DNA of 64,000 nt from a virus. A program made the translations under genes and the position numbers. Under the pieces are notes generated by a model. It did no database searches. It was not told the DNA's origin and saw only the letters and a list, made by a program, of their open reading frames with translations. This document shows, in pieces, positions 33,843-56,330 of the stretch (its first letter is position 1; every line of letters starts with the position of its first letter). The stretch lies in IMG/VR virus record IMGVR_UViG_3300003690_000003, positions 106,862 through 170,861 of that record; one strand, written 5' to 3'.

Positions 33843-34205
33843 TTATATTTCCAATCCCAAAAGTCCCTTATTTCTATCAAGGTTTATAGCTACAGCATAG
33901 TCTTCGTTCCCGTCGGGCTTTCGATCGTTTACTAAATATCTTTTACCGCCCCCAACTCCCAGAATAAGCTGATCATAAATAATACCTAGTTGTGACAGCT
34001 GTCTTTCTGTTTGGGACCGGGACCCTTCTCTGCGCCCAGATACTAATATAATATTATAACCTTTTTTGTCCCATTCTAATAATGTTTCAACTGTTCCAGA
34101 TAAAAGCTTTGGATTAAAATCTGGTTTGGTTGTTTCCGTGGCAGCGCCATGTTCTATCAATGTTCCGTCGATATCACAAAATATTGTTTTTGCCCTATTA
34201 TCCAT
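33843..34205 (-). CDS. HAD-superfamily phosphatase (120 aa)
   Basis: A 120-residue minimal HAD hydrolase: motif I CDIDGTLIEHG at residues about 10-20, motif II Ser/Thr in VSGRREGSRS, and motif IV-like VNDRKPDGNEDYAV. It overlaps the GatZ-like gene by eight bases. Small HAD phosphatases in sugar-nucleotide clusters remove phosphate from sugar phosphates (GmhB and KdsC are classic cases). The substrate here cannot be read from sequence, but a sugar bisphosphate from the PfkB kinase is a reasonable candidate. Confidence 0.88.
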   Translation of the reverse strand: MDNRAKTIFCDIDGTLIEHGAATETTKPDFNPKLLSGTVETLLEWDKKGYNIILVSGRREGSRSQTERQLSQLGIIYDQLILGVGGGKRYLVNDRKPDGNEDYAVAINLDRNKGLLGLEI

Positions 34206-35169
34206 AAAATAAGCTTCCTAGCTTGTTCTTAATATTGTATTTTATTTCAGTATCAATATCTTCAAAATTAGATTTAATTCTTTCTAGGAAATCTAGTTGA
34301 GATAATATATAATGACCGCATATATTTATAAGCTCTTCTTTATTTACTGTGGGATCATAATAATCGTCTACCCACTTTTTCCAACGTCTAGAGTCATAGC
34401 ATATCTGCCAAAATACGTCAAGAAGTTCAGGCTTTTCATTTTTAATTTTATGTAGATATGTTTTAGTTTCTATCTGTCCGAATTCTGGGGCTATATTAAT
34501 TGAATCTAGGCCAAGTGAAAACTTTTCGTGAATCAGCGCTGGTGGCAAATAGTCACCATTGTGTTCCTTCGCAAACATTCCATGCTGATGTACTATTTTA
34601 AGCATTCCTTTAAGTCGCTCCTTGCCATATACTCCTGTGTTTTCATTTCCTTGCAACGATGTACCTGATTGTATCACACAATATTTAATTTTTTCATATT
34701 CTGCTGCTTTAAGCTTCCGCTCTAAATCTTTTAATAGCCTGCCGACCTCGGAGGTACTAAAATGTCTGATTGCTTCCTCTGTTCCCACTTCAAAAAATAT
34801 CTTCGAGTTTCGTTGATAACAATATTTAATCATTTCAACTGTCCACTGCAAACCATCTTCATAAACGGGATATTTTTTCCAAGGATCAATGTGAATCATA
34901 TCTAAATATTTGCAATCTACCTCTAAAGAATCATAACCGTCATCATCACAAAGCCCCTGGCCGGGGCCGGCATGATCGCGAGTGATGAACTGCCGCGGCA
35001 TATATCTGCGAAAGGTTTTGGTCGACCACCCATTTACATAGCCTCCTTGGGTGGCAACTTGACGACGAGAAGGGATAAATCCTATACGATGGCCTGTCTC
35101 GTTGCAAAACTCTACTACAGAGTCTACAACATTTTTTGACATTGGGCCAATAAAATATTTAATCGACAT
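34198..35169 (-). CDS. GatZ/KbaZ-like TIM-barrel protein (323 aa)
   Basis: A 323-residue protein resembling the so-called non-catalytic subunit of class II tagatose-bisphosphate aldolase: IGFIPSRRQVATQGGYVNGW at residues about 29-48, RDHAGPGQG near 64, HIDPWKKYP, and FFEVGTEEAIRHF near 125. The pattern of strand-ending Asp/Glu/His suits a TIM barrel. GatZ/KbaZ family genes also occur in bacterial capsule clusters, where their substrates differ. The usual GatY partner is absent, but a class II aldolase of another type (AraD/FucA) is encoded in the same island. It overlaps both neighbours by 8-11 nt. Confidence 0.85.
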   Translation of the reverse strand: MSIKYFIGPMSKNVVDSVVEFCNETGHRIGFIPSRRQVATQGGYVNGWSTKTFRRYMPRQFITRDHAGPGQGLCDDDGYDSLEVDCKYLDMIHIDPWKKYPVYEDGLQWTVEMIKYCYQRNSKIFFEVGTEEAIRHFSTSEVGRLLKDLERKLKAAEYEKIKYCVIQSGTSLQGNENTGVYGKERLKGMLKIVHQHGMFAKEHNGDYLPPALIHEKFSLGLDSINIAPEFGQIETKTYLHKIKNEKPELLDVFWQICYDSRRWKKWVDDYYDPTVNKEELINICGHYILSQLDFLERIKSNFEDIDTEIKYNIKNKLGSLFYG

Positions 35170-36721
35170 TTTCCAGTGTTCTTTTCAAACTCAGCTTCCC
35201 AAAATTAAATAAAAATTTGTTAAAAGGATATTTATGCAATGGCGCCATGTTTATCCATATAATCGCCGTCAGCACCTCTACCTTTTGAAAATCATATCCA
35301 TTATCAATAATAAATTTTTTCAATATCTTTTTACACTCTAAAAGTTTAGAGTTACACAAAATATAACAGTTATCGACTGAACTATTAAACATCTTCTTGT
35401 TTACAATTTCATGATTAATACTCAGATTGTGATTCAGCTTAGCCAAATCATAATATATGTCCCCAATCGATAAATGACCTCCGAAATCTTGACGCCAATC
35501 GAGTAAACAGAAGCCATCCTCCGTTTCAAGAATATTGTCTAATATAAAATCTCCATGGAACTGTACAGGAACCCCCGCGCATAACCATTTCAAATCGATT
35601 TTATTGAAAAGCTCTTTAATAGGAGGGACCGCTTCTCCATTAATCAGCACCGACACGTCGGAGTTTTTCTCTAAAAATGTATTAATACGTGAAAATGTTT
35701 TATCGACGTAAAACCGACGACATATCTCATCAAAGGCATCACACTCTTTTTTTAACCACAGCCGCTCTTTTGACCACTCTAGAAGGCGCCAAAACTTCTC
35801 GCGGGTAACTGACTTAGAAAACAAACTCCCTGGGACCAACTCATACTTATAAAAGTTATTTCCTGTGGCCACGACGCGAGGTACCAAGCCAGCAAGACGT
35901 TTGGCACGCTGAATACGATTTTGATTAATCTCGGCATTGGCAAAAAACTTTATAACGTGCTTCTCAAAAAAGTAAATCGATTCCTCCTTTTTTTCCAGCA
36001 CGTCGGTCGTGGTCGTAAAGTGTTGTCGAGCCCTTTCTAGTTCTCCTACGTTGCCAATATCAATCCACCCATGTGCCTCAACAAACTTAACTGGAGCCGC
36101 CGAAGTCTCCAACATACGGTTGATTACATTTCCTTCAAACAAAGAAGTGCTATCCCCTTCCGCGTGATATAATTTTTCTAGCTCCTCCCAAAACAAAATA
36201 TAATCTTTAATCCCGCATAGTCCTACATATGCAAAATCATAATGAAGCTCTCCTTTCTCTTTAATTTTTACTACTGCGCCCCTGTCAACCAACAGGGTGC
36301 TATATTGCGAAGCGTCATTTTTTTGCTCTCCAACACAAAAATTCTCACCACTTTGAACACACTCCAATAAAAATGTACTATCCTTAAAGAAAGTATCACA
36401 TGCATTAAATATGAAAGGGCACTGAAGTTCTTCCTTGGCTTGTAAAATAGAATAAGCAAGGCTCGACCCGGGACCATTATAGTTATCCACCCACACAAAA
36501 GCACAGTTTAACTGCGGATATGCCATTTCTACAAACTCTTTTACATATAAACCATAGTGTCCTAGCGTAATCACGAACTCTGTGCCAGCTGGATATCCTT
36601 CTATAATATATGAAATAGCTGGTTTGTCCCCTATGCGAACAAGTGCCTTGTTGGTAAAATCGGTAAGATCACCAAGGCGGCTCCCAACTCCGCTTGTTGT
36701 TATTAATACTTTATATTGCAC
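35159..36721 (-). CDS. Fusion: sugar nucleotidyltransferase + APH/choline-kinase-like phosphotransferase
   Basis: A 520-residue two-domain enzyme starting at GTG (36719-36721) directly after the cupin stop. The N-terminal domain (about 1-240) is a MobA/RfbA-like NTP transferase: TTSGVGSRLGDLTDFTNKAL (signature GxGxR..K), NACDTFF with catalytic-type Asp, and WIDIGNVGELERA. The C-terminal domain (about 270-520) is an APH/choline-kinase-like fold: VQFHGDFILDNIL (HGDxxxxN catalytic loop) and LLDWRQDFGG (metal-binding Asp). Comparable LicC/LicA-type pairs activate small alcohols; fused forms occur in capsule loci. It likely phosphorylates and activates one glycan substituent or sugar. Confidence 0.9.
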   Translation of the reverse strand: MQYKVLITTSGVGSRLGDLTDFTNKALVRIGDKPAISYIIEGYPAGTEFVITLGHYGLYVKEFVEMAYPQLNCAFVWVDNYNGPGSSLAYSILQAKEELQCPFIFNACDTFFKDSTFLLECVQSGENFCVGEQKNDASQYSTLLVDRGAVVKIKEKGELHYDFAYVGLCGIKDYILFWEELEKLYHAEGDSTSLFEGNVINRMLETSAAPVKFVEAHGWIDIGNVGELERARQHFTTTTDVLEKKEESIYFFEKHVIKFFANAEINQNRIQRAKRLAGLVPRVVATGNNFYKYELVPGSLFSKSVTREKFWRLLEWSKERLWLKKECDAFDEICRRFYVDKTFSRINTFLEKNSDVSVLINGEAVPPIKELFNKIDLKWLCAGVPVQFHGDFILDNILETEDGFCLLDWRQDFGGHLSIGDIYYDLAKLNHNLSINHEIVNKKMFNSSVDNCYILCNSKLLECKKILKKFIIDNGYDFQKVEVLTAIIWINMAPLHKYPFNKFLFNFGKLSLKRTLENVD

Positions 36722-37075
36722 TTAGTCGGACACTCTCTTATAGTCATCTTCGAAGCGAACTATATCATCTTCACCAAAATATTCTCCCCGCTGCACTTCA
36801 ATAAAAACCAAGTTGTCTTGGCCCGTATTGCGTATACGATGCTTTGCTTCTACAGGGACGCGTACAACATCTCCGGCCTTAACCTCGGACGTAACATCAT
36901 CCAATGTTAGGCGCCCCCCTCCTTGAACTATAATCCATGTTTCATCGCGCTTGTGATGTAGCTGGTAACTGGGGGCATGCCCTGGATATACCACTATTTC
37001 CTTCACCTTACAGTAGCTTGTATCCAAAAGGTTTTCGAATGTTCCCCATGGGCGCGCTTCCTTATAGTGTGTCAT
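36722..37075 (-). CDS. Cupin, mannose-6-phosphate isomerase type II-like (117 aa)
   Basis: A 117-residue single cupin: RPWGTFENLLDT, then KVKEIVVYPGHAPSYQLHHK, DETWIIVQGGGRLTLDD and VPVEAKHRIRNTG. These are the two cupin motifs with His/His/Glu/His ligand pattern, as in the C-terminal isomerase domain of ManC/type II PMI enzymes. It likely isomerises a hexose phosphate or epimerises a sugar in the island pathway. It overlaps the methyltransferase gene by four bases (ATGA). Confidence 0.9.
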   Translation of the reverse strand: MTHYKEARPWGTFENLLDTSYCKVKEIVVYPGHAPSYQLHHKRDETWIIVQGGGRLTLDDVTSEVKAGDVVRVPVEAKHRIRNTGQDNLVFIEVQRGEYFGEDDIVRFEDDYKRVSD

Positions 37076-38244
37076 GGGACGAATTTAATCTTGGGATTTA
37101 TATTAGTAAGGATGTCATGTTTTATTTCCTCGTTATAAACGCCAGCCCTTAAGATTACTATAGCACTATCTTCGTTGCTCAACGCGGCCGGAGACGCTAC
37201 CTGAAGATGTGTGCCATAAAGTCGTTTACCGTGTTTTTTAACATCGTTATCTAAGATGCTAACTATCTTGTCTGTTTGCAGTCCGTGGGCTATCAACCAC
37301 TGCGAAAACACATGCCCTCCAAATAGATATATCGGCGCTGTGGCCTCCTTGACTAAAATATTAAGCTCTTGGGATAATTGCGCGTCGGCTTTTATGTACT
37401 TCATCCACAACTCTTTATGATTCTCATAAAGCTTTGGGGGTAGTTCGGATGGTCGTCTGCTGTTGCTAGTTTTTTTAATACCATAAAAAATACTATGATC
37501 ATCTCTAAAATATTCTTTTTCAACAACTTCAAACCCATAGGTTTCTATAAAATAATCGACGTATACCTCATCTAAGAAATATGTGTGCTCAAAATTTAAA
37601 CAATTAGAGTAGTTTTTTTCTAACATCGCTCTCATATTGGGGATAGAAAAAAACGACAGGTCCCCTATCTTCATAAATGTCGCTTTGTCGCGCATAAAAC
37701 GATGAGGAGAATATACATGCTCGAATACGTGTGAATGTACTATCGTATCATATCTTTCGGTCGCTTTAAAATTCTCATTAAACCACCCTTTAATAAGGTG
37801 CAGAGGCTCCTTAATATTCTCACTTGGATTGGGCTCCACAATCGTCCACTTCAACTCCGGACGATTGTTTAGAATTAGGCGCCCTAAATAACCATGTAAC
37901 CCTCCTATTTCCAATATGCTATTGGTCTTATCAGGCTGTCGTAAAATAAATCTAGAAAAAGCTTCGTGATGTCGGCGCCAAAGCTCTCCTACCGTCCCCG
38001 AGCCATGGCCTTTTTTATATACTATTTCCAAAGGTAAAACAGGATCAAGCTGAATCATTCCAGACTTGCGACTAATCCACCAACTCATCGACGAAACTAA
38101 ATCATCTTCTGGTGACGTGTTATCACACCCCATAAAAACAGGAAAATTTGAAAAGGTGCACAGATGCTCCATATCTGTAGAGTTCGTAATTAAATCAGAG
38201 CCTCTTGGGATACCTGTTATAACATTTGTCTTATCTTTTTTCAT
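37072..38244 (-). CDS. SAM-dependent sugar C-methyltransferase-like protein (390 aa)
   Basis: A 390-residue protein. The N terminus has Cys residues as in zinc-binding methyltransferase domains (CTFSNFPVFMGCDN). A Rossmann SAM domain follows: NSILEIGGLHGYLGRLIL (motif I) and HSHVFEHVYSPHRFM (post-I region), at residues about 110-220. The C-terminal domain (about 300-390) begins APIYLFGGHVFSQWLIAHGL and SILDNDVKKHGKRL, as in three-part NDP-hexose C-methyltransferases. It likely methylates a sugar nucleotide or glycan; the acceptor is not known. It overlaps the downstream cupin gene by 4 nt and the upstream glycosyltransferase gene by 14. Confidence 0.87.
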   Translation of the reverse strand: MKKDKTNVITGIPRGSDLITNSTDMEHLCTFSNFPVFMGCDNTSPEDDLVSSMSWWISRKSGMIQLDPVLPLEIVYKKGHGSGTVGELWRRHHEAFSRFILRQPDKTNSILEIGGLHGYLGRLILNNRPELKWTIVEPNPSENIKEPLHLIKGWFNENFKATERYDTIVHSHVFEHVYSPHRFMRDKATFMKIGDLSFFSIPNMRAMLEKNYSNCLNFEHTYFLDEVYVDYFIETYGFEVVEKEYFRDDHSIFYGIKKTSNSRRPSELPPKLYENHKELWMKYIKADAQLSQELNILVKEATAPIYLFGGHVFSQWLIAHGLQTDKIVSILDNDVKKHGKRLYGTHLQVASPAALSNEDSAIVILRAGVYNEEIKHDILTNINPKIKFVP

Positions 38245-40003
38245 TTTTTTCCCAACTCAAAAACTTATCAAAGACATATTCAGCCGGCGGATTAGCTCCG
38301 TGTTCAGATAAAAAAAGCACCGAAGTTTCAAATGGATTCCAACTATCTTTATATCTAGTCAGATTGACCGGCATTGAGAACGCACTTGTGTTCCAATCGG
38401 CCCAGACTATCTGTGGACACCCACATAGGCTTGCTAAATGCATCGGTCCAGAAGAAGTTCCAAAAATGCATGCTGCGCTAGCCAAAGTGTTTAAAAGTTC
38501 CTTCGATTCACACTCTCGCATGTCCGCGGAACCTTCGACAAACATGGATTCTTCTTTGGTTCCAATACATACTACATTATAGCCCACCGAATGAAGTTTT
38601 TTAATTAAGTCTTCCCACTTGTCACGGCTCCAATTGTCATTGGGGCGCAAGCTTCTATTCCGAGCATGAATAACAACAGCTTTTTCCTCTTTTGTTTTCT
38701 CTCCTAGCTTTTTATACTCAGGGGGAAGGAAGTGTTGTGCTATCTGGATTTTTTCAGTAATCGGAGTATAGGGAGGGTTTCCAACTCTTCGCGGGCCCAC
38801 AACCGATACGGCCGACTCTTGCGGATCGATTTTTAGAGATTCCAGAGTCTCTTTAACTATGGCCCCTAGCGGCGGGATGCCCGTACGATGAAAGGTGTCT
38901 CGGGGCCCTGCGTTTTCAGGATCAAAAGGAACAAATATATCACAAAAATCATCATATAAAAAGCGCGAATGTTTTGAAGACACACATACGGTTTTATCAT
39001 AAAACGCAGAAAGGCTTCTAATATATCCCTGCCACGCAAACAATTCCCACCCAAACTCTCCGACCCACGGACCAGCAAGTAAAATGGTTTCTTTTTCTTT
39101 CTTGTGTCTCGGCGAAAAGTCAAATCTTTCTAATAAGCGCAACGTTTCGGCAGCCCAGTTCTTTCTGGTATATTGCTGGACTGTCACTCTACCTTGTTTT
39201 CCTATCCTCTCTCTTTCTTTGGGATTCTCTAGATAAAATGCAATCTTTTTATTTAAATCATCATAGTCTTTAAAAATAACGAGGTCTTCGCCGTCCGTAA
39301 AAAAATCTTCCCTGTCGTTCCAATCATCTGATATCAAAAATCCGGCGGCGGCTAGAACCTTAAAAACCCGATCTGACTGACCCCCTGTCGTACAAAAATT
39401 AAGATTAATCTTGGACTGCGATACCGCCATGGAGTGTTGCTCAGCAAAAACATTGTTTATTACGCTAATAGAGTATTTGATTTGTTCCATCTTGGATTTT
39501 CGATCGCCGTACAGCGTCCCTATAAAACTAACATCATAAATCTTTTCTAGATTTCGCGGCTTCTCAAGAGCGCTATCAAAGCCATCTGTTACCAAAAACG
39601 AGTTTTTATTAAGCTCTAATGCTTTATCTAACACATTCTTCTTATCACATGTAAAAAAGTCTGCCACTCTTGTCTTGTCGTAGAATTCTTCGTATGAATA
39701 TGTAGCAAGAGGATCAGCAAACCAATAGCATAAAGGAGCAAGTTTTTTACACTCTTTAAAAACTCGAATGCTTATACCGTTACATTTAGAAAAAATTATA
39801 AAATCGGGAGCCCAGCTTTTACAAAAGCGAATAATTTCATCATCCCTTTTAGAGGAAATAAAAGGATTCCCTTCTAAAGTATGCCCGCGAGTTCGATAGT
39901 TATAAGCAACCACTGTGTGTCCCGCGTTTTGTAGCTCCCTCAGCTTTGCGTTATCAGCACTTTGATGTATATTATCAAAAACGGCGCTATAAAATATTTT
40001 CAT
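38231..40003 (-). CDS. Fusion of two glycosyltransferase modules (CgeB-like + GT9-like)
   Basis: A 590-residue protein. Residues 1-300 resemble CgeB-type GT-B enzymes: CYWFADPLATYSYEEF, YDVSFIGTLYGDRKSKMEQI, then RVFKVLAAAGFLISDDWNDR and TDGEDLVIFKDYDDL. Residues about 305-590 resemble GT9 heptosyltransferases: GPWVGEFGWELFAWQGYIRS, AVVIHARNRSLRPNDNWSRD, and FGTSSGPMHLASLCGCPQIV, the classic GT9 donor-site string with S-G-P-M-H-L-A. GT9 enzymes use ADP-heptose or related donors, which fits the heptose-type enzymes upstream. The fusion could add two sugars in sequence. No signal peptide; cytosolic. Confidence 0.9.
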   Translation of the reverse strand: MKIFYSAVFDNIHQSADNAKLRELQNAGHTVVAYNYRTRGHTLEGNPFISSKRDDEIIRFCKSWAPDFIIFSKCNGISIRVFKECKKLAPLCYWFADPLATYSYEEFYDKTRVADFFTCDKKNVLDKALELNKNSFLVTDGFDSALEKPRNLEKIYDVSFIGTLYGDRKSKMEQIKYSISVINNVFAEQHSMAVSQSKINLNFCTTGGQSDRVFKVLAAAGFLISDDWNDREDFFTDGEDLVIFKDYDDLNKKIAFYLENPKERERIGKQGRVTVQQYTRKNWAAETLRLLERFDFSPRHKKEKETILLAGPWVGEFGWELFAWQGYIRSLSAFYDKTVCVSSKHSRFLYDDFCDIFVPFDPENAGPRDTFHRTGIPPLGAIVKETLESLKIDPQESAVSVVGPRRVGNPPYTPITEKIQIAQHFLPPEYKKLGEKTKEEKAVVIHARNRSLRPNDNWSRDKWEDLIKKLHSVGYNVVCIGTKEESMFVEGSADMRECESKELLNTLASAACIFGTSSGPMHLASLCGCPQIVWADWNTSAFSMPVNLTRYKDSWNPFETSVLFLSEHGANPPAEYVFDKFLSWEKNEKR

Positions 40004-40009
40004 ACCACT

Positions 40010-40339
40010 CTACTTTTTAAAAAACTCACTATCAAGAATTCCTTTATCATCAACATATATATCGGCGGCCGGCTTACCTAGAAAGAGAGCATGATATTTA
40101 AGACCCCACTCGTTTAGTTGATTTTCTGTAAAAGAATACATTTGTTTGTATGCCTCAATTTGATTGTTACTGCTTCTTCCCATCCCCCGCGCAGTCAAAA
40201 AAAATATTGTATGGCCATTCTGATATAGATCATTTACTTTCTGGATACGCTTCCGATCGGGAATTGAATTAATGTAATCGCTCCCGTTTGTCTGACAGAT
40301 TGTTCCATCGATATCAAAAACATAAGTTATTTTATCCAC
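40010..40339 (-). CDS. HAD phosphatase, capsule-type (109 aa)
   Basis: A 109-residue HAD hydrolase: YVFDIDGTICQTNGSDYINS at the N terminus, then ADRK-like SIPDRKRIQKVNDLYQNGHT, motif II in FFLTARGMGRSSNNQ, and FLGKPAADIYVDDKGI. This string order is typical of the small phosphatases found in O-antigen and capsule clusters. It overlaps the transaldolase gene by 13 nt. It is a candidate for the C7- or C5-phosphate removal step after the PfkB kinase, by analogy with GmhB. Substrate not determined. Confidence 0.9.
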   Translation of the reverse strand: MDKITYVFDIDGTICQTNGSDYINSIPDRKRIQKVNDLYQNGHTIFFLTARGMGRSSNNQIEAYKQMYSFTENQLNEWGLKYHALFLGKPAADIYVDDKGILDSEFFKK

Positions 40340-40995
40340 TTATTAAAATCTCTTATAAACCCATCTACAGATTCATCAGTTTTTAAATGTTTAGTCGCCT
40401 TTTTAATTACTGAAGCAGAGGCCGTCACAATATGACAGCCGGCATCCCAACAGTCTTCTAAATCATATGCATTACGAATACTTCCAGCTATTATCTCACA
40501 CTGCAGGTTGTTGATATCAATAAATTTTCTCGTTCTTTGCAACGCTTGAATCGCGTTTCCTTGGTTGTCCAAAACCCTATTATAAAATAGAGAAACATAT
40601 CTGGCGCCGGCGGAGGCGGCTAGTTGCAACTGCGTGGCAGTAAAACAGCATGTACAGTTCACTCTAACTCCAAGCTGGAAAAGTTGATTTACCGCTCTCA
40701 TTTCCTCAAACCCGACCGGTACCTTTATATTCACATTATCATAATCAATTCTTTCAATAATCTTTAGCCCCTGCTTAATCATCTCATCAGGTTCTGTTGC
40801 GAAAACCTCAACAGAAACTGGTATTTTCTGTTGGTACTTTTTACAAAGCTCGCAAATCTGTTGGATGTGCGAATAGAAATCTGCCTTTGGTTCTTTTGAA
40901 AGTAAAGACGGATTGGTTGTTATGCCTTGCACTAACCCTTTTGACAATACTTCTTCTATCTCTTGTAGGTTCGCTGTATCGACAAATAATTTCAT
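40327..40995 (-). CDS. talC: Transaldolase/fructose-6-phosphate aldolase-like
   Basis: A 222-residue class I aldolase of the TalC/FSA subfamily (usual length about 215-220). MKLFVDTANLQEIEEVLSKG and QGITTNPSLLSKEP form the N terminus. NVNIKVPVGFEEMRAV carries the Schiff-base Lys near residue 91. VNCTCCFTATQLQLAASAGA and RYVSLFYNRVLDNQGNA give the later barrel strands. Cyanophages carry TalC to tune host carbon metabolism. Here its place inside a sugar operon suggests it makes or breaks a ketose phosphate (such as sedoheptulose-7-P) for the following isomerase. It overlaps neighbours by 4 and 13 nt. Confidence 0.93.
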   Translation of the reverse strand: MKLFVDTANLQEIEEVLSKGLVQGITTNPSLLSKEPKADFYSHIQQICELCKKYQQKIPVSVEVFATEPDEMIKQGLKIIERIDYDNVNIKVPVGFEEMRAVNQLFQLGVRVNCTCCFTATQLQLAASAGARYVSLFYNRVLDNQGNAIQALQRTRKFIDINNLQCEIIAGSIRNAYDLEDCWDAGCHIVTASASVIKKATKHLKTDESVDGFIRDFNKWIK

Positions 40996-41429
40996 TTTTT
41001 ATCTTCCTCTAAATGTTTATACGTTTTCCCATCTTCAACTATGTGGGAGTCCGCATTATCATCCAAAGTTGAAAACTCTATAATAACCGTATCCTCCAAA
41101 GCGATTCGCATATGCATAAAACCAGGCGGTATGTGAAATACATCTCCTTTATTTAAAATCAAAGAAGTATTTTTTGCTCTTCCGATTCGAGTCCCTACTT
41201 TGAGCTTTCCTGATTCAATATAATAAGATTCTTCCTTCTTTACATGATATTCCAGGCTACTTTGAGTATCCTTTCTCATAAAAATCCTTTTAACTGTATA
41301 TTTATCATTTTCGAAAAGAGTTTTTATACTACCCCAATATTTATCGATACTCTTTACTACACTATTAACCGGAGGCAGCGTGTGGCGACCATATTTAATT
41401 TCATTGCCCATAGTAACTCTTATCCCCAT
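40992..41429 (-). CDS. Cupin, mannose-6-phosphate isomerase-like (145 aa)
   Basis: A 145-residue cupin: KEESYYIESGKLKVGTRIG and FHIPPGFMHMRIALEDTVII carry the two cupin motifs, with several His and Glu ligands. It is distinct from the other island cupin (36722-37075). It starts 29 nt inside the class II aldolase gene; a second Met at codon 7 would shorten the overlap to 11 nt and is equally likely. Probable sugar-phosphate isomerase or epimerase; activity not proven. Confidence 0.85.
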   Translation of the reverse strand: MGIRVTMGNEIKYGRHTLPPVNSVVKSIDKYWGSIKTLFENDKYTVKRIFMRKDTQSSLEYHVKKEESYYIESGKLKVGTRIGRAKNTSLILNKGDVFHIPPGFMHMRIALEDTVIIEFSTLDDNADSHIVEDGKTYKHLEEDKK

Positions 41430-42084
41430 GCTTTCTCAAAAAGTGTTTATTGATGATAAATTTTTCTAGTGTTGACTGCGGATTGAACAACAAGGTTTTG
41501 TATGCCATTTCTGCGACCAACTCTAAAATAAATGAATGTTGCAATGCGTTCTCGATTGTATTTCCCCAAACGAAAGAGCCATGCCCGGATATCAGACATG
41601 CCGCAACATCATTATAACTCAAACCAGACATTTTATAAAATTTTGCAATAGTTTTGCCCGTATATTTCTCATAATTTTCTGTCACTTCATTTTCAGTGGG
41701 GTGACGGATACATGGTATTTCTCCAAAAAAATAGTCCGCATGAGTTGTACCCAAACAGGGTATTGATTTCTGGGCTTGCGCAAAAATCGTAGCATATTTC
41801 GAATGTGTATGCACTATGCTATTGATATCTGAAAAGTTTTTATAAATCTCTAAATGAGTTGGCAAATCAACGGACGGTTTTCTACCGCTTATTAAAGTTT
41901 CATCCATTCTTACACTAGAGATTTCATCAATACTCAATAAATTCAAATCAGCTCCAGAAGGCTTTATATAAACTACGCTAGTATCTCTATCATAATAACT
42001 AACATTTCCCCAAGTTAAACTAACAAGACCCTTGTCGATGATCCATTTGTTGGCCTTTAAAACCTCTTTCTTAATCGATCTCAT
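41401..42084 (-). CDS. Class II aldolase/epimerase, AraD/FucA family
   Basis: A 227-residue protein of the usual length. SLTWGNVSYYDRDTSVVYIK is the substrate phosphate-binding N-terminal string. LPTHLEIYKNFSDINSIVHT and HSKYATIFAQ hold the His zinc ligands, with a further His in CLISGHGSFVWGN. Family members cleave or epimerise sugar phosphates (fuculose-1-P aldolase, ribulose-5-P 4-epimerase). With TalC and RpiB homologues nearby it probably acts on a pentulose or heptulose phosphate. It overlaps the PfkB gene by 14 nt. Confidence 0.9.
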   Translation of the reverse strand: MRSIKKEVLKANKWIIDKGLVSLTWGNVSYYDRDTSVVYIKPSGADLNLLSIDEISSVRMDETLISGRKPSVDLPTHLEIYKNFSDINSIVHTHSKYATIFAQAQKSIPCLGTTHADYFFGEIPCIRHPTENEVTENYEKYTGKTIAKFYKMSGLSYNDVAACLISGHGSFVWGNTIENALQHSFILELVAEMAYKTLLFNPQSTLEKFIINKHFLRKHGDKSYYGQ

Positions 42085-42982
42085 TCAAATCCTCATATAC
42101 TGGTGATACGGTACCTCTTTTTAAGGTGGACGCCGCGGCCCATTTATTACAAAAAGATAAATCTTTATCCTTGTAACTCATACTGAAAGCAGCCAAAAAA
42201 GAGTCGCCGGCGCCACATGTATCCACGGGCGCGACTCGATATCCATCATGACACAACAATACATTGTTATAATACAGAATCGAGCCGGCGGCTCCTAAAG
42301 TGACACATATATTACTATTCAGATTTTTAGATAGTTTCTGCATGTGTTTATATGTAGGTTTAAAAAAAGGGCAGTTTTGTATTGCCTCTTCATGGTTCAT
42401 ACAAATAAAATCTGAGTTAGCAAAGTGGGGGTATTGATTCTTCCCATCAGAAATCTGTGAGCTGGAGATTACTACTGCCTTGTTGGTTTTAAAATATTCT
42501 ATCAGGTCTTGAGTTGTCTTCTTATCATCAAAAAGGCCATTTCTATAATCCGCTAAAACGACGGTGTCAACTTTTTGTTGAGCTACATACTTCTTTATAA
42601 GCTCTAAATCTGCTATGACAAGATTTCTTTTGTCGCCACGATTTATTTGCAAATATTTATAGCTATGGAGTCCTTTTTTAATCCAAACTCTGCTTTTAAC
42701 AAGATTTTCTCCCCTGTGTGCCAGGGGTTTAAGTATGAAGTTATCACTCTTCCAACCATAAAATAAGCCACTGTATTGATCTTCCCCTACGTTTGTAAAA
42801 AATGTAACGCGTGCTCCAAGTGACAACAAATTGTTTACTACATTGGCAGCACCTCCAAAAGATACTTTTTCATCAACAAGCCTGGTTTTTAAAGTAGGAG
42901 TTTCTAAAGATAGACCTATACAATCACAAAAAAGATCATGATCAACGATTGAATCTCCTAAAACTAAAATATTTTTTTTCAA
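42071..42982 (-). CDS. PfkB-family sugar kinase, HldE N-terminal-like
   Basis: A 303-residue ribokinase-fold protein. LGDSIVDHDLFCDCIGLSLE opens the protein, SFGGAANVVNNLLSLGARVT (about 41-60) is the HldE/RfaE1-type substrate motif, and APVDTCGAGDSFLAAFSMSY (about 247-266) is the PfkB anion-hole motif with catalytic Asp. HldE domain 1 phosphorylates heptose-7-P at C1. The matching nucleotidylyltransferase domain is encoded in the adjacent gene, which overlaps by four bases. It is therefore a split HldE kinase half in all likelihood; the exact sugar is not known. Confidence 0.93.
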   Translation of the reverse strand: MKKNILVLGDSIVDHDLFCDCIGLSLETPTLKTRLVDEKVSFGGAANVVNNLLSLGARVTFFTNVGEDQYSGLFYGWKSDNFILKPLAHRGENLVKSRVWIKKGLHSYKYLQINRGDKRNLVIADLELIKKYVAQQKVDTVVLADYRNGLFDDKKTTQDLIEYFKTNKAVVISSSQISDGKNQYPHFANSDFICMNHEEAIQNCPFFKPTYKHMQKLSKNLNSNICVTLGAAGSILYYNNVLLCHDGYRVAPVDTCGAGDSFLAAFSMSYKDKDLSFCNKWAAASTLKRGTVSPVYEDLNEID

Positions 42983-43848
42983 CTTTCACTCTTCTCCCAG
43001 CCTTTGTTTTGGTATATTTTCTTTATAACGTTGGTGGTAGAATAGTTTTCCAAGAGGGGATATATTTTTATATCAACTTTATCTGGTATCTTATCTCGGC
43101 GCCTTACCTCTTTAGCATTCCACTCCCCTCCCTTCACAATAATAGATGGCTGTAGCTCTTCTATAATGCTTGCGCTTTCCAGTTCATCGTAAACCACCAC
43201 TTCGTCTACTTCTTCAAGCGCCTCTAAAAGCTTTTTTCTATCTTCTTCGTTATTAATGGGTCTATTTTCGCCCTTTAGCTCACGAACACTCCTATCCGAG
43301 TTGATACCAACAACAAGCTTATCTCCGAGAGACTTAGCGAATCTTAACAATCCTAGATGCCCAGCATGCAAAATATCAAATACTCCATTCGTAAAAACAA
43401 TTTGTTTCTTTGTAGATGACAACTTCTCTACTCGTGCGATATGTCTGCCTTCTCCAAAGTTAGTTTGTAGCCAAATATCTGTAATTTCAAAATTTTGTTC
43501 TTCCGTGGTAGTCCAACTTCCCAAACATAGTACATTAGAATCGTTATGTTCACGACTCTTTGGCGCTGTCATAACATTGTGAACTAAGGCTGCCCTCACT
43601 TTATCAAATCTATTTGCGGCGATGCTCATACCAACACCAGTACCACAAATAAGAATACCCCTGTGAATATCATCATTGCTTAAAATCTGACACAATTGAT
43701 TAGCGTAGTCGACGTAGTCCACTTTTTTAGTTTTATCATAAGGTCCTATATCTATAACAATATACCCCTTCTCTTTAAGGTGGGTTCTAATTTTTTCTTT
43801 TAAAGTAATCCCGTTATGATCAGACGCCAAGCCTACAATATTCATCAA
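42979..43848 (-). CDS. Fusion: RpiB/LacAB isomerase + RfaE2/HldE nucleotidylyltransferase
   Basis: A 289-residue bifunctional protein. Residues 1-150 are RpiB-like: ASDHNGITLKEKIRTHLKEK, DYANQLC, and GILICGTGVGMSIAANRFDK with the active-site Cys and CGTGxGxSIxAN motif, then EHNDSNVLCLG. Residues about 155-289 are RfaE2-like: FTNGVFDILHAGHLGLLRFA (HxGH), VVGINSDRSVRELKGENRPI and IVKGGEWN. RpiB interconverts aldose and ketose phosphates; RfaE2 transfers AMP or CMP to a sugar-1-phosphate. Fusing both suggests the isomerase replaces GmhA in an ADP-heptose-like path, but ribose or other pentoses are possible too. It overlaps both neighbours by 4 nt. Confidence 0.93.
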   Translation of the reverse strand: MMNIVGLASDHNGITLKEKIRTHLKEKGYIVIDIGPYDKTKKVDYVDYANQLCQILSNDDIHRGILICGTGVGMSIAANRFDKVRAALVHNVMTAPKSREHNDSNVLCLGSWTTTEEQNFEITDIWLQTNFGEGRHIARVEKLSSTKKQIVFTNGVFDILHAGHLGLLRFAKSLGDKLVVGINSDRSVRELKGENRPINNEEDRKKLLEALEEVDEVVVYDELESASIIEELQPSIIVKGGEWNAKEVRRRDKIPDKVDIKIYPLLENYSTTNVIKKIYQNKGWEKSES

Positions 43849-44714
43849 AGCTCCAATAAATCTGAAAAAGTTTTTAGCGCTGCATCTCTTTTTTGTCTTA
43901 TTTTAACGATCAGCTCTTTACCGGATAAATCAAACCAGTCTTCCGAGGTAGCGCCGATCATAGCCTTTCGAGTTACTACTTTACATTCGAGCATTTTTGC
44001 TTCTACCACAACTCGTGACAGTGTTTCCAATACCTGCGGCATAAAAATAAAATATTTGTATTGAGCCATAGCTTCTAATAACTCTTCCTCTGAAAGCGGA
44101 CCTATTAAATCGTACTCTATACTATTTGTTTCGCAATACTTAACGGCCTCCACTGTTCCTTTAATAGGATTAGGCGAGTTAATAATACAATACTTATTTT
44201 TCTTGGGAGATCCCACCAAGGATTCTATAAAATCTAGCTTCTCGTCTGACCACAAAGAACAGCCAATATTGCTTACGTTATTTATATCAAGAGTTTTTTC
44301 CATTATTTTTTTGCATATGCCGCTTAATACTACGACACTGTATGCTTTTTCATAAAAGCTTTTATTAATGATTTGCTCTCCTGGGATGATAAAATTAGGA
44401 AACACAGAAGGATCACGAGTTCTTATATATTTGTGATCATGTTCATAAATAATATATTTTTTGGGGCCACCATGGCCGGAAGATCCTTCTAAAAGTCGTT
44501 TGCTCTGTTCGGAAAGCTCAATAAAGTTGGATATAATATATGTTTCTTCCGCGGAAGAAGAAACAATCGTGTCGGGTGTAGTCTTCTTCGCATGAAGCAT
44601 TGTTACATCTACTTCGGTATTTCGTAGAAAGTTGATAAGTACAGCATCATTGTTTTCGGCGCCGCCATTGATTTGGTTATTAAAAAAGTCAGCCACAAAA
44701 GTTACCTTTTTCAT
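43845..44714 (-). CDS. GT-B glycosyltransferase, GT4-like (289 aa)
   Basis: A 289-residue protein with a GT-B layout. FVADFFNNQINGGAENNDAV near the N terminus is the acceptor-side Gly-rich loop. IINSPNPIKGTVEAVKYCET and FIFMPQVLETLSRVVVEAKM give the donor side with the Glu-x7-Glu motif typical of retaining GT4 enzymes. It is shorter than most GT4s (350-400). It overlaps neighbours by four bases on both sides (ATGA), so it is tightly coupled to the NDP-sugar genes. Confidence 0.87.
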   Translation of the reverse strand: MKKVTFVADFFNNQINGGAENNDAVLINFLRNTEVDVTMLHAKKTTPDTIVSSSAEETYIISNFIELSEQSKRLLEGSSGHGGPKKYIIYEHDHKYIRTRDPSVFPNFIIPGEQIINKSFYEKAYSVVVLSGICKKIMEKTLDINNVSNIGCSLWSDEKLDFIESLVGSPKKNKYCIINSPNPIKGTVEAVKYCETNSIEYDLIGPLSEEELLEAMAQYKYFIFMPQVLETLSRVVVEAKMLECKVVTRKAMIGATSEDWFDLSGKELIVKIRQKRDAALKTFSDLLEL

Positions 44715-45958
44715 AACACTTCTATATTACTTAAGCTTTCAAGCCACTCCACTTCTTCTTTAGAATAGATTGTAGAAATAAAATCTTTATACAACTGTTC
44801 AGCTTGAAAATTCTTTATAATATGTTTTTTCAACTTATTTGCGGCGGCCTGAAATCTCGTATGGTTTTTGTAAACTTCGCGAAGTTGTTTCTTGTAATCG
44901 CCCTCAACGGGATATGCCCACATCGAATCTTTCTCTACGACGCCTTCCCAGTGAGCTTCAGGAGGCACAGTGCCAAGAGTATAAGCTACTTTTGCTACCA
45001 TAGGTCTCAATTTACCATTTTTATTTGGAGCATAAAGAAAATCTGTATGGCCACTCCAAAGTGAAGTTACAATGGGTAATCCATTATATGCTGCTTCGAA
45101 TAACGGTAACCCAAAGCCTTCTCCGTGACTTATAGAAACCAAAGCTTTTATCTTATCATGGGTATAAAGCCATGTCATTTCTTCTTCCGAGAGAGTTCCG
45201 TGTAGCAAATATATTTTACATTTTCGCTCGCCGTATGGTCTCATTAATGCTTTCAAACGCATCTCGGTTATCTGCCTATCGATTATACAATCTTTGGCTA
45301 TGTTAGTTTTTAAAACGAAACCAACTTCTTCATCTTTAAACTCGTCTACAAACCACTTAAGAGTGTTATCTATATTTTTTCGCGGGCCCCATTGTGCCAC
45401 TGTTAAAAAGTTAAAATCGTATTTCAAATCTATCCCCTCTAGAGAACTAGGTTCAAAATGTCGCACTGGATAGTTAATAACTTCAATCGGAGTCTCACAT
45501 CTATAGTTTTCTACTATTTCGCCAGTCTCTTTGTTTTTTGCGTTGGCTGTGGTGGTCTCATATACTTGTTTGGAATGATTCGAGACTACAATAATCTTAT
45601 CCATATCATTTCCTTTAGTGAGCCATATAGGTGCCACCTTGGTAGTTTCAATACCAGCAGTATACCCAATGTTTATGGGTGCTATTTTTTCCCATTCATT
45701 AGGAATTGTTACCTGAAGAGATATATCTAAAAGTCCCTTTGCTTGAACAAGTTTCATCGTTTTGAAAAGCAAGTGATCAAGCCACTGACGTTCTTCGCCT
45801 AGGCCCGTAATATACCCGGTGTGTCCCCATGGAATATTAATGAGATATATATCAAATACATCTTCGCGACTTTTTAGTGCTCGAAGAGCAAATCTGGTTT
45901 GTTCTCCATAACCCGAACGAGAGAATGCGGGCCCTTTAACTAATATTTTCTTTTTCAT
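44711..45958 (-). CDS. GT4-family glycosyltransferase (415 aa)
   Basis: A 415-residue GT-B enzyme: VKGPAFSRSGYGEQTRFALR (N-terminal acceptor loop), FLTVAQWGPRKNIDNTLKWF (start of donor domain) and ALVSISHGEGFGLPLFEAAY (GT4 Glu-x7-Glu donor motif). It likely transfers a sugar from a nucleotide donor with retention. It overlaps both neighbours by four bases. The acceptor may be a host glycan, a virion protein or DNA; there is no sequence clue to decide. Confidence 0.92.
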   Translation of the reverse strand: MKKKILVKGPAFSRSGYGEQTRFALRALKSREDVFDIYLINIPWGHTGYITGLGEERQWLDHLLFKTMKLVQAKGLLDISLQVTIPNEWEKIAPINIGYTAGIETTKVAPIWLTKGNDMDKIIVVSNHSKQVYETTTANAKNKETGEIVENYRCETPIEVINYPVRHFEPSSLEGIDLKYDFNFLTVAQWGPRKNIDNTLKWFVDEFKDEEVGFVLKTNIAKDCIIDRQITEMRLKALMRPYGERKCKIYLLHGTLSEEEMTWLYTHDKIKALVSISHGEGFGLPLFEAAYNGLPIVTSLWSGHTDFLYAPNKNGKLRPMVAKVAYTLGTVPPEAHWEGVVEKDSMWAYPVEGDYKKQLREVYKNHTRFQAAANKLKKHIIKNFQAEQLYKDFISTIYSKEEVEWLESLSNIEVL

Positions 45959-47214
45959 ACTATCTCCAAGAACTCATATGCTATATAACCTTTTCGTGTA
46001 TTCCACGAACCGTTGATCTCGTAAACTTCTTTTAAGGTCTCATCCCATTTTTCTATATAAGTTGCGAAATTATAGTTTTTCGTAACATGGGCTACTCCTA
46101 GGTGACCCATTTCTGCTCGCTGTTCGGCTGTCAAATTGTAAAAGTCTACTAAAGCCTTAACAAAATCATCTTTATTTAATCGGTCTTCAAAAATATATGG
46201 AACGTCTTGAGAGCCAATAACCGCTTTAGAAACAGACTCAAGTCCAATTCCAAACCAGTTCTCTCCGTCGGTTACTTGTTCTTGAAGTCCTCCTGTCATA
46301 TTAACAATAATAGGTGTTTCACATGCTAACGATTCTAATGTAGCCAGCCCAAATCCCTCTGCATCAGCAATATTAATCGTGCAATCTGCCATATTATACA
46401 TCAGGGCCATGCCTTCGGGAGGCAATTTGTCTCTAGAAAGCATTATTTCTCCATTTGTTAGCCCCAACTCATACATAATATGTTCTAAATCTTGCCCATG
46501 GACATCTTTTGGTTCGGTGTGCATAATCAAACACGCGTTATCGTGTCCTACCTTGTCCAAAAACTCCTTAAACCAGAAAATCAATGTTCCACTTTGCTTT
46601 CGGCGCGCATTTCGATTATTCCAAAAAAATACAAATTTCTTCGGATTATTTAAGTGTGTTTGTCGAAATGTTTCTACAACCTCCGCGTCTAGTTTTTTAA
46701 AATATGTCGGATCAACAGCATGAGGAAGATATAAAGATTTAACTGTCGGTGAAACCGTTTTAACTATATCATATGTCACTTTAGATATACAAGCGACACA
46801 ATCGTTTGAATCATAAAACTTTTTGTTAAAACGAGGATAAGGATAATTATCCCATACGTGATAATATACCATCGGAACAAGAGAACGAATCTCGTTTTCT
46901 ATCTCCCACAACCAACCGTAAAAACGAGGATCCGTCATAAACCATAAAATATCCGGTTTTTGCTGAATTAATATAGATCTAACCTGGTCCTGTGTACCAT
47001 ATCCATCAACAGGAAAAATAAGCCAATCATCACCCCACTGCTCGGTTTTTTGAGCATTATGATCATCATGCCGCATCGCTCCAGCAAAAGATATAAACTG
47101 ATAACGACCTGTCTTAAGCAGTCCTTCAATAATATACTTTGTTTGAGTTCCCACTCCGGAAGGAGAAAGAGGATGATCACTTATAGTGAAAATCTTGATT
47201 TTTTTATCTGTCAT
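45955..47214 (-). CDS. GT4-family glycosyltransferase (419 aa)
   Basis: A 419-residue GT-B enzyme: TISDHPLSPSGVGTQTKYII at the N terminus, FVFFWNNRNARRKQSGTLIF at the start of the donor domain and INIADAEGFGLATLESLACE as the Glu-x7-Glu donor motif. It is the first gene of the carbohydrate island in transcription order, 10 nt after the nuclease gene. It resembles the next GT4 in plan but not closely in sequence, so it is probably not a recent duplicate. Confidence 0.92.
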   Translation of the reverse strand: MTDKKIKIFTISDHPLSPSGVGTQTKYIIEGLLKTGRYQFISFAGAMRHDDHNAQKTEQWGDDWLIFPVDGYGTQDQVRSILIQQKPDILWFMTDPRFYGWLWEIENEIRSLVPMVYYHVWDNYPYPRFNKKFYDSNDCVACISKVTYDIVKTVSPTVKSLYLPHAVDPTYFKKLDAEVVETFRQTHLNNPKKFVFFWNNRNARRKQSGTLIFWFKEFLDKVGHDNACLIMHTEPKDVHGQDLEHIMYELGLTNGEIMLSRDKLPPEGMALMYNMADCTINIADAEGFGLATLESLACETPIIVNMTGGLQEQVTDGENWFGIGLESVSKAVIGSQDVPYIFEDRLNKDDFVKALVDFYNLTAEQRAEMGHLGVAHVTKNYNFATYIEKWDETLKEVYEINGSWNTRKGYIAYEFLEIV

Positions 47215-47986: not shown

Positions 47987-48721
47987 CTAGTTGTCGCTTT
48001 CTCTGTGTAACGTACTTAAAATATTATACAATACTGGGCTCACTTCTTTAACCCGACGAGTATCTCCAAGATAATATTTTTCAAAACCATTGGCAAAATA
48101 TTCTCTCAATGAAGTGGCAGCGTAAGGTGAAGCAAAAAGCCCCATAGTTAAAGTTAGTAATATGGGATAGCCAACCGTATCCGATAGAAACTCGTCGAAG
48201 GCTTCTGAATATTCAAAGTTCAAATAATATTTCTCTGGAATCTGATATTCATGCGCATCCAATATGGCTTTTAACTTCGCTCTTTTCCCTATGAACTCAT
48301 CCCGAAGTTTCTGATCCCCATATATAAAACTTCCATACCTAGACTCTATAGAATGTGCGATTTCATGAATAACATCTTCTAACATGTCGTGAGTAGTGGG
48401 TTCTTTATTAGAAATATAAATAGCATCATCGGCGTATATTGCATTGCGTCCTTTAAGATTTGGGAACTCACCAATATAAACTATCTCTATATTACCAAGC
48501 AAATGTCGTGGGATTTTCTTTTCAATTTTTTCTACAAACTCAGCTATATTTACTTCATCTGAAAAAATCGGATCTTTAATCACTATGGGGATTTGACCAT
48601 GAATACGATATTCCTGAGTTTTTTTAATTCCTTCTGCAATATAGGAATGTAAACTATTTATCTCCGCTGGGCGCTTCTTCTTCATTGCTATCCTCTGAGG
48701 TTCCTGAGTTTTTCTCAGCAT
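47987..48721 (-). CDS. Zincin-like metallopeptidase domain protein (244 aa)
   Basis: A 244-residue protein. MLEDVIHEIAHSIESRYGSF (residues about 117-136) has the HExxH zinc motif. Downstream, SLREYFANGFEKYYLG contains a Glu positioned like the third ligand in gluzincins and related phage or toxin peptidases. No signal peptide, so cytosolic or virion-associated. Its start overlaps the 111-aa gene by 68 nt; a later Met (codon 13, MKKKRPAEIN) would reduce the overlap to 32 nt. Activity is inferred from the motif only. Confidence 0.83.
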   Translation of the reverse strand: MLRKTQEPQRIAMKKKRPAEINSLHSYIAEGIKKTQEYRIHGQIPIVIKDPIFSDEVNIAEFVEKIEKKIPRHLLGNIEIVYIGEFPNLKGRNAIYADDAIYISNKEPTTHDMLEDVIHEIAHSIESRYGSFIYGDQKLRDEFIGKRAKLKAILDAHEYQIPEKYYLNFEYSEAFDEFLSDTVGYPILLTLTMGLFASPYAATSLREYFANGFEKYYLGDTRRVKEVSPVLYNILSTLHRESDN

Positions 48722-56011: not shown

Positions 56012-56330
56012 TGGTGGAGGTGGTGGGAATCGAACCCACGTCCAAAGCATGCATCCTTCAAGTCGTTCACAAGCATAGTTATATTTTAATCTAAATACAC
56101 AAAATAGTCAAGCTTTTAATGCGCAAAACTTTGACAAAAGCGCTTACATTGTCAATGCTCTTCTTGGACACTTGGTGAAGAGCAACCAAGGGTTAAGCAG
56201 CTAGGGCTAAACCGTAATCTGCATCATTGGCAGTTATATTTTTTCTGAAAAGTTTTATGTGATTACCAGAAGTTACACAGCTTGCACTAATATACGGATT
56301 TTTTACTCTGTCGATACCTTAAACACCCCC
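56012..56330 (-). ncRNA. ssrA: Transfer-messenger RNA (tmRNA), tag ANDADYGLALAA
   Basis: 319 nt. The 5' end GGGGGUG pairs with CACCUCC before ACCA, giving a 7-bp acceptor stem with G3-U wobble, the alanine identity element. The T arm is GTGGG-TTCGATT-CCCAC, and CCA is encoded (56012-56014). The D-like part reads GGTATCGACAG. The mRNA-like part begins at GCC (56229-56231) and codes for ANDADYGLALAA, then TAA (56193-56195). After the stop, CTTGGT/ACCAAG with loop GCTCTTC pairing downstream GAAGAGC forms a perfect pseudoknot. A second stem (TTGACAA/TTGTCAA) follows. The RNA is shorter than the roughly 360 nt of E. coli tmRNA. It rescues stalled ribosomes and tags proteins for proteolysis. Confidence 0.97.
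56083..56111 (-). promoter_or_regulatory. Promoter-like sequence nested in tmRNA gene
   Basis: TTGACT (56106-56111), 17-bp spacer, TAAAAT (56083-56088) on the minus strand, inside the AT-rich linker of the tmRNA. It would start RNA near 56076 and read into the metzincin pair. The match is good but lies in AT-rich structured RNA, so it may be chance. Confidence 0.35.

Follow-up and report, generated by a model that had tools for sequence, protein, structure and literature searches.

Six genes in a stretch of viral DNA appear, on balance, to encode a self-contained nucleotide-sugar pathway that follows the logic of the adenosine diphosphate (ADP)-heptose pathway. The pathway is most likely fed by a pentulose-5-phosphate and would give a nucleoside diphosphate (NDP)-pentose. 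The stretch analysed (the window, 64,000 nucleotides) comprises bases 106862-170861 of the 170,861-base virus record IMGVR_UViG_3300003690_000003, a record that may be incomplete. The genes lie head to tail on the minus strand at window positions 40010-43848, with mutual overlaps of 4-29 bases.

The first gene of the module (42979-43848) encodes a fusion of an RpiB-like aldose-ketose isomerase domain (residues ~1-145) and an RfaE2/HldC-like nucleotidyltransferase domain (~147-280), as assigned by Pfam/NCBIfam and Protein Data Bank matches. It is followed by a PfkB-family sugar-phosphate kinase, nearest to HldE1 (42071-42982; TIGR02198 91 bits vs. ribokinase 56 bits, both under the cut-off), and by an AraD-type L-ribulose-5-phosphate 4-epimerase of the class II aldolase fold (41401-42084; NF006047 269.6 bits, cut-off 257). 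The fourth gene encodes a cupin (40992-41429; Pfam, viral homologues, and an AlphaFold2 model), which may be a sugar-phosphate isomerase/epimerase or an accessory enzyme. The last two encode a transaldolase of the small TAL/FSA family (40327-40995; domain match and active-site residues) and a small EcbF/BcbF-like HAD phosphatase (40010-40339; TIGR01689 44 bits, under the cut-off; PHROG 1238).

An earlier reading of the bare sequence, the original prediction, had located the HAD, the transaldolase, the PfkB kinase, the fusion, and an adjacent glycosyltransferase with a weak GT9 half where we found them. All the genes it assigned to the operon are real, and the AraD-type epimerase and the cupin were overlooked. 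It correctly recognized the ADP-heptose-like logic, with an isomerase, a C1-kinase, a phosphatase, and a nucleotidyltransferase present and an RpiB domain at the place of GmhA. The absence of GmhA was also borne out: the SIS_2 family (PF13580) gave no match across the 170,861 bases of the possibly incomplete record and none over the cut-off in 34 related virus records. Finally, the loss of active-site residues, named in advance as a sign against the idea, did not occur; RpiB, AraD, and the transaldolase retain their catalytic residues, and the kinase and RfaE2 their catalytic motifs.

Active sites and the proposed route

The RpiB domain passed the RpiB model cut-offs in profile searches, and the alignment revealed that the catalytic residues Asp10, Cys68, and His101 and the phosphate-site residues Arg135 and Arg139 are kept. 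The equivalent of Arg113 (Leishmania/T. cruzi numbering) is Trp112 in the window's domain. Trp occupied this place in 40/40 module RpiBs, as opposed to Arg in 31/31 stand-alone viral RpiBs and in the 4/4 solved RpiBs compared. Arg113 is listed among the substrate-recognition residues of RpiB (PMC4783025). Since this residue is replaced, the name 'RpiB' is less informative for the fused domain; the change to Trp would fit a substrate other than ribose-5-phosphate and leaves the substrate length unfixed. The related isomerases LacA and LacB, whose substrate has six carbons, are likewise without an Arg113 equivalent in the alignment and have the fold and the catalytic Cys, His, and Asp in common with the module RpiBs. 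The latter differ from RpiB, LacA, and LacB in forming a separate, monophyletic clade (40 sequences, support 0.944) and in being fused to RfaE2.

The AraD of the window is approximately 44% identical to E. coli AraD (1jdi) over the full length. Its His92, His94, His168, Asp117, and Tyr224/225 align with the His residues, Asp120, and Tyr229 of the E. coli enzyme, which we take to be the Zn ligands (His) and the catalytic residues (Asp120 and Tyr229), and the phosphate-site residues are kept as well. The protein scored above the cut-off of the subfamily model NF006047 and below that of the araD equivalog. AraD interconverts D-xylulose-5-phosphate and L-ribulose-5-phosphate; unlike E. coli AraD, the module enzyme is encoded in a nucleotide-sugar cluster and not in an arabinose catabolic operon.

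The active site of the transaldolase, with Glu, Asn, Phe, and the Schiff-base Lys, is of the transaldolase (TAL) type and not of the fructose-6-phosphate aldolase (FSA) type. Among the transaldolases compared, Glu replaced FSA Gln59 in 27/28, Phe replaced FSA Tyr131 in 28/28, and Lys was present in 28/28; these three are presumably the residues that tell a transaldolase from a fructose-6-phosphate aldolase. An FSA-type identity was ruled out on this basis. The HAD keeps the DxDGT and DDK motifs.

Of all the module proteins, the cupin is conserved best (56-83% to its viral homologues). Its AlphaFold2 model had a mean predicted local distance difference test score (pLDDT) of 84.6 and a predicted template-modelling score (pTM) of 0.75, and a Foldseek search returned many unrelated cupins, including lyxose isomerase and CapF, with no specific function. 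Structure prediction had been recommended in the original prediction for the RpiB and RfaE2 pockets; the model of the fusion (pLDDT 82.5) matched RpiB and HldC folds, and its domain packing is unreliable because the pTM was 0.48. Both predicted structures are confirmation of fold and not of specificity. In the cyanophage loci L003, L004, L005, and L015, the 'phosphoheptose isomerase' (PHROG 1238) is a small HAD homologous to that of the window, and the gene labelled 'cysteine dioxygenase' (PHROG 7851) encodes the cupin; both labels are likely annotation errors.

A pentose is preferred because AraD matches the L-ribulose-5-phosphate 4-epimerase model with its catalytic and phosphate-site residues kept, and because transaldolase together with transketolase supplies pentose phosphates. 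The general logic would run from a ketose-nP through an aldose-nP, an aldose-1,n-bisphosphate, and an aldose-1-phosphate to an NDP-aldose. In the proposed route, transaldolase and transketolase would provide the pentose phosphates and AraD would convert D-xylulose-5-phosphate to L-ribulose-5-phosphate. The RpiB domain would then turn a pentulose-5-phosphate into an aldose-5-phosphate, which the PfkB enzyme would phosphorylate at C1 to the 1,5-bisphosphate. Removal of the 5-phosphate by the HAD would leave the 1-phosphate, from which the RfaE2 domain would form an NDP-pentofuranose, and neighbouring glycosyltransferases would attach the sugar to a virion protein or to a glycan of the host surface. 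The sequences themselves establish the gene content and order, the conservation, the retained catalytic residues, the divergence from heptose enzymes, and the presence in cellular polysaccharide clusters; all substrates, the nucleotide base, the role of the cupin, and the acceptor are inferred. The product would be a furanose, since on chemical grounds a 5-phosphate prevents pyranose closure. We hold only tentatively the more specific suggestion, taken jointly with the view that the module belongs mainly to marine phages and rarely to their hosts, of a hitherto undescribed route that would yield an NDP-L-pentofuranose (L-arabinofuranose, for example) without a mutase, and in which AraD is followed by the Trp-type RpiB (giving an L-aldopentose-5-phosphate), PfkB, HAD, and RfaE2.

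Several points weigh against the pentose. RpiB activity on L-ribulose-5-phosphate is, to our knowledge, not established, and transaldolase yields sedoheptulose-7-phosphate as readily as it aids pentose phosphate supply. The loss of Arg113 argues against ordinary ribose-5-phosphate as the substrate, and a longer one is possible given the same loss in LacA/LacB. In addition, the related contigs L043 and L047 carry the module without AraD, and the entire 196,877-base record of L043 gave no match to a class II aldolase; AraD is dispensable in some modules. Finally, the proposed route assigns no step to the cupin.

Comparison with heptose enzymes

The ADP-L-glycero-D-manno-heptose pathway (GmhA-HldE-GmhB-HldD) and its viral HldE/HldD form resemble the module in their kinase/phosphatase/nucleotidyltransferase logic and in their homologous PfkB and RfaE2 domains, and most viral HldE-type loci have a cupin nearby, as the module does. 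The module differs in having RpiB, AraD, and a transaldolase, in having neither GmhA nor HldD, and in the replacement of heptose-signature residues. Viral loci with a single HldE-like protein (kinase plus RfaE2) were used as the control group. The E. coli HldE signature was matched at 24 chosen positions by 50 of 58 viral HldE kinases; these positions were picked after the alignment had been viewed and describe two groups rather than provide an independent statistical test. The module kinases, that of the window included, keep GAGD and the other catalytic positions. Compared with E. coli and viral HldE, they carry R31G, P34L, V38T, R118Q, and D120N, and DPK is changed to xSQ. Nearly all module kinases, including that of the window, have thus exchanged the heptose-type signature and lack the conserved residues of HldE1/HldA heptose-7-phosphate kinases, to which the similarity is at family level.

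A similar comparison was made for RfaE2. The module domains keep HxGH, K384, R388, and STT; relative to HldE they show D434E, Y435W/F, and A/V441R, have lost DTP, and have gained two conserved Arg that have no counterpart in HldE. The RfaE2 of the window scored 154.3 bits with the heptose model (cut-off 181.5). It keeps TNG, NSD, KG, and KGG, and ExTP is absent, as in nearly all relatives. ExTP and KGG were named, from docking, as the predicted heptose-1-phosphate binding motifs of B. pseudomallei HldC (PMC7993394). The replaced positions of both enzymes would presumably be ones that touch the sugar.

Heptose-type enzymes and the module also coexist: at least one phage, L024, has the module alongside a heptose-type kinase and a heptose-type RfaE2, and L018 has it alongside a heptose-type RfaE2. 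The gene after the HldE-like gene encoded an HldD-like epimerase in 3/3 viral loci tested (231, 202, and 242 bits, cut-off 274.6); the module of the window showed no such gene. As a separate observation, many viral contigs (L102-L177) carry an HldE-like kinase-nucleotidyltransferase protein and a nearby cupin; no GmhA was found in the HldE-type records checked, in which the isomerase step is left to the host or the cupin.

These comparisons bear on whether the product is a true NDP-heptose, for which the transaldolase would make sedoheptulose-7-phosphate, RpiB would replace GmhA, and the kinase, HAD, and RfaE2 would follow, possibly with a new stereoisomer arising by AraD-type 4-epimerization. 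For the kinase and for RfaE2, the nearest domains are those of HldE, and the transaldolase, which gives sedoheptulose-7-phosphate, is tied to the module (20/20 RpiB-type virus records vs. 0/14 HldE-type records). Arg113 is lost as in the six-carbon LacA/LacB, and L043 and L047 still hold a complete heptose-like set without AraD. However, the signature residues are replaced in both enzymes, L024 and L018 keep heptose-type enzymes beside the module, HldD is missing from the module of the window, and AraD retains its pentulose-phosphate residues. We therefore consider an NDP-heptose unlikely. An ordinary D-glycero-D-manno-heptose nucleotide in particular is most likely not the product, because the signature residues are replaced and heptose-type enzymes coexist with the module. 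Thus, the idea that RpiB stands in for GmhA in making an ordinary NDP-heptose was not supported, given the kinase and RfaE2 signatures, the two enzyme types in L024, and the AraD in the module. Of the two products originally suggested, a new NDP-heptose or an NDP-pentose, the latter fits better and the former less well.

That the same logic serves to make a sugar of some other kind or chain length (a hexose, an octulose-derived sugar, or another) is more doubtful still. The Arg113-to-Trp change in the RpiB pocket and the two additional RfaE2 Arg would suit it, and transaldolases are generally known to accept other acceptors. However, AraD is pentulose-5-phosphate-like at every residue checked, and the sequence evidence favours no particular alternative substrate.

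Spread among viruses and cells

Relatives of the module were found by scanning viral contigs with RpiB, RfaE2, and AraD alignments, followed by gene maps; alignment queries were required, as a single-sequence scan gave only RfaE2 relatives. The fused RpiB-RfaE2 was present in about 50 viral contigs, with 37 distinct RpiB sequences including that of the window. At least 31 viral contigs carry all six genes in an unchanged order (a manual count from gene maps); some of these contigs are near-identical, so that independent events are fewer. The recurrence of the module is more than chance. One variant, L065, has a stand-alone RpiB. The sugar clusters of Kyanoviridae cyanophages such as P-SSM2, P-TIM68, and S-SM2 also contain RfaE2, a PfkB-like kinase, a small HAD, a cupin, and glycosyltransferases. 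Unlike in the module, RpiB and transaldolase were not found there; S-SM2 does carry a distant member of the class II aldolases and a transketolase-like gene.

Cellular copies were sought by a genome scan with the cupin. A complete module is present on a 53-kb contig of the Prochlorococcus single cell AG-347-M18. This contig also contains probable housekeeping genes (ftsH, argF, lexA, and pheS, as read from sequence starts), Wzc/Wza-like and glycosyltransferase genes, and a separate gmhA/hddA/hddC-gmhB-like set whose family matches are under the curated heptose-model cut-offs. In the alphaproteobacterial single cell AAA536-K22, the module is split across two contigs and belongs to a polysaccharide cluster that also includes transketolase genes. 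Both copies thus sit within polysaccharide gene clusters, and the cellular fusions nest among the viral ones in a tree of the fused proteins. Samples of 400, 136, 385, and 386 genomes yielded no strong match beyond these two genomes, which were already known; four other genomes in the 400-genome sample had weak cupin matches (E about 1e-16).

Given this context, we regard it as highly improbable that the genes serve as auxiliary genes of the pentose phosphate pathway, boosting nucleotide synthesis during infection, and lie beside unrelated sugar genes. RpiB, transaldolase, and AraD do handle pentose phosphates, and transaldolase is well known as a cyanophage auxiliary gene. However, the genes are inherited together as one unit, and a plain auxiliary role was ruled out by the fusion of RpiB to a nucleotidyltransferase, by Trp where the other RpiBs compared have Arg, and by the polysaccharide context of the cellular copies. 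Modification of phage DNA by the activated sugar, like the arabinosyl-hydroxymethylcytosine of phage RB69, is equally improbable and was rejected: phages are known to place pentoses on DNA (PMC6024577, PMC12838424), but no gene of the thymidylate synthase/dCMP hydroxymethylase family was found in the possibly incomplete record, the RB69 candidate genes belong to different families, and the cellular copies lie in surface-polysaccharide clusters.

Neighbouring genes and significance

Directly beside the module, 38231-40003 (minus strand, as are all further protein genes of the window named below) encodes a glycosyltransferase with a Glyco_trans_1_2 half and a weak GT9 half (24.0 bits, cut-off 22). 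Homologous pieces of it adjoin the module in several relatives, and it is a candidate user of the module's sugar. On the other side, 43845-44714 encodes a protein of unknown family (no Pfam match) in a glycosyltransferase-like position, conserved as a module neighbour in many relatives. It is followed by two GT4-type glycosyltransferases (44711-45958 and 45955-47214; both PF00534), also conserved neighbours. A second sugar set at 33843-38244 comprises a HAD, a 323-aa protein without a Pfam match, an NTP_transferase+APH fusion, a mannose-6-phosphate-isomerase-type cupin, and a methyltransferase; all five genes recur beside the module in L023/L099.

Other features of the window include a transfer-messenger RNA gene (56012-56330, minus strand) with the tag peptide ANDADYGLALAA and a gene (5578-17874) whose 4098-aa product contains five Laminin_G_3 stretches and is probably a giant fibre or adhesin. 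The product of 47987-48721 has a weak ATLF metalloprotease-type match (24.3 bits, cut-off 27.4) and is probably a phage metallopeptidase-like protein; the match is no evidence of a toxin. In the phage record L010, the starts of the open reading frames at 10080-11651 and 16662-17696, read by eye, resemble GroEL and IMP dehydrogenase/GMP reductase.

The literature searched, excluding subscription papers and preprints, contained no account of this gene combination. The pathway would accordingly be absent from that literature, common to many marine phages, and rare in cells, with one case in Prochlorococcus and one in an alphaproteobacterium. Small soluble enzymes are assigned to all its steps, and hence the identity of the sugar is directly testable. 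If a furanose donor is made without a mutase, this would change the view of how such sugars arise and would help to approach the question of why phages bring surface-sugar genes of their own.

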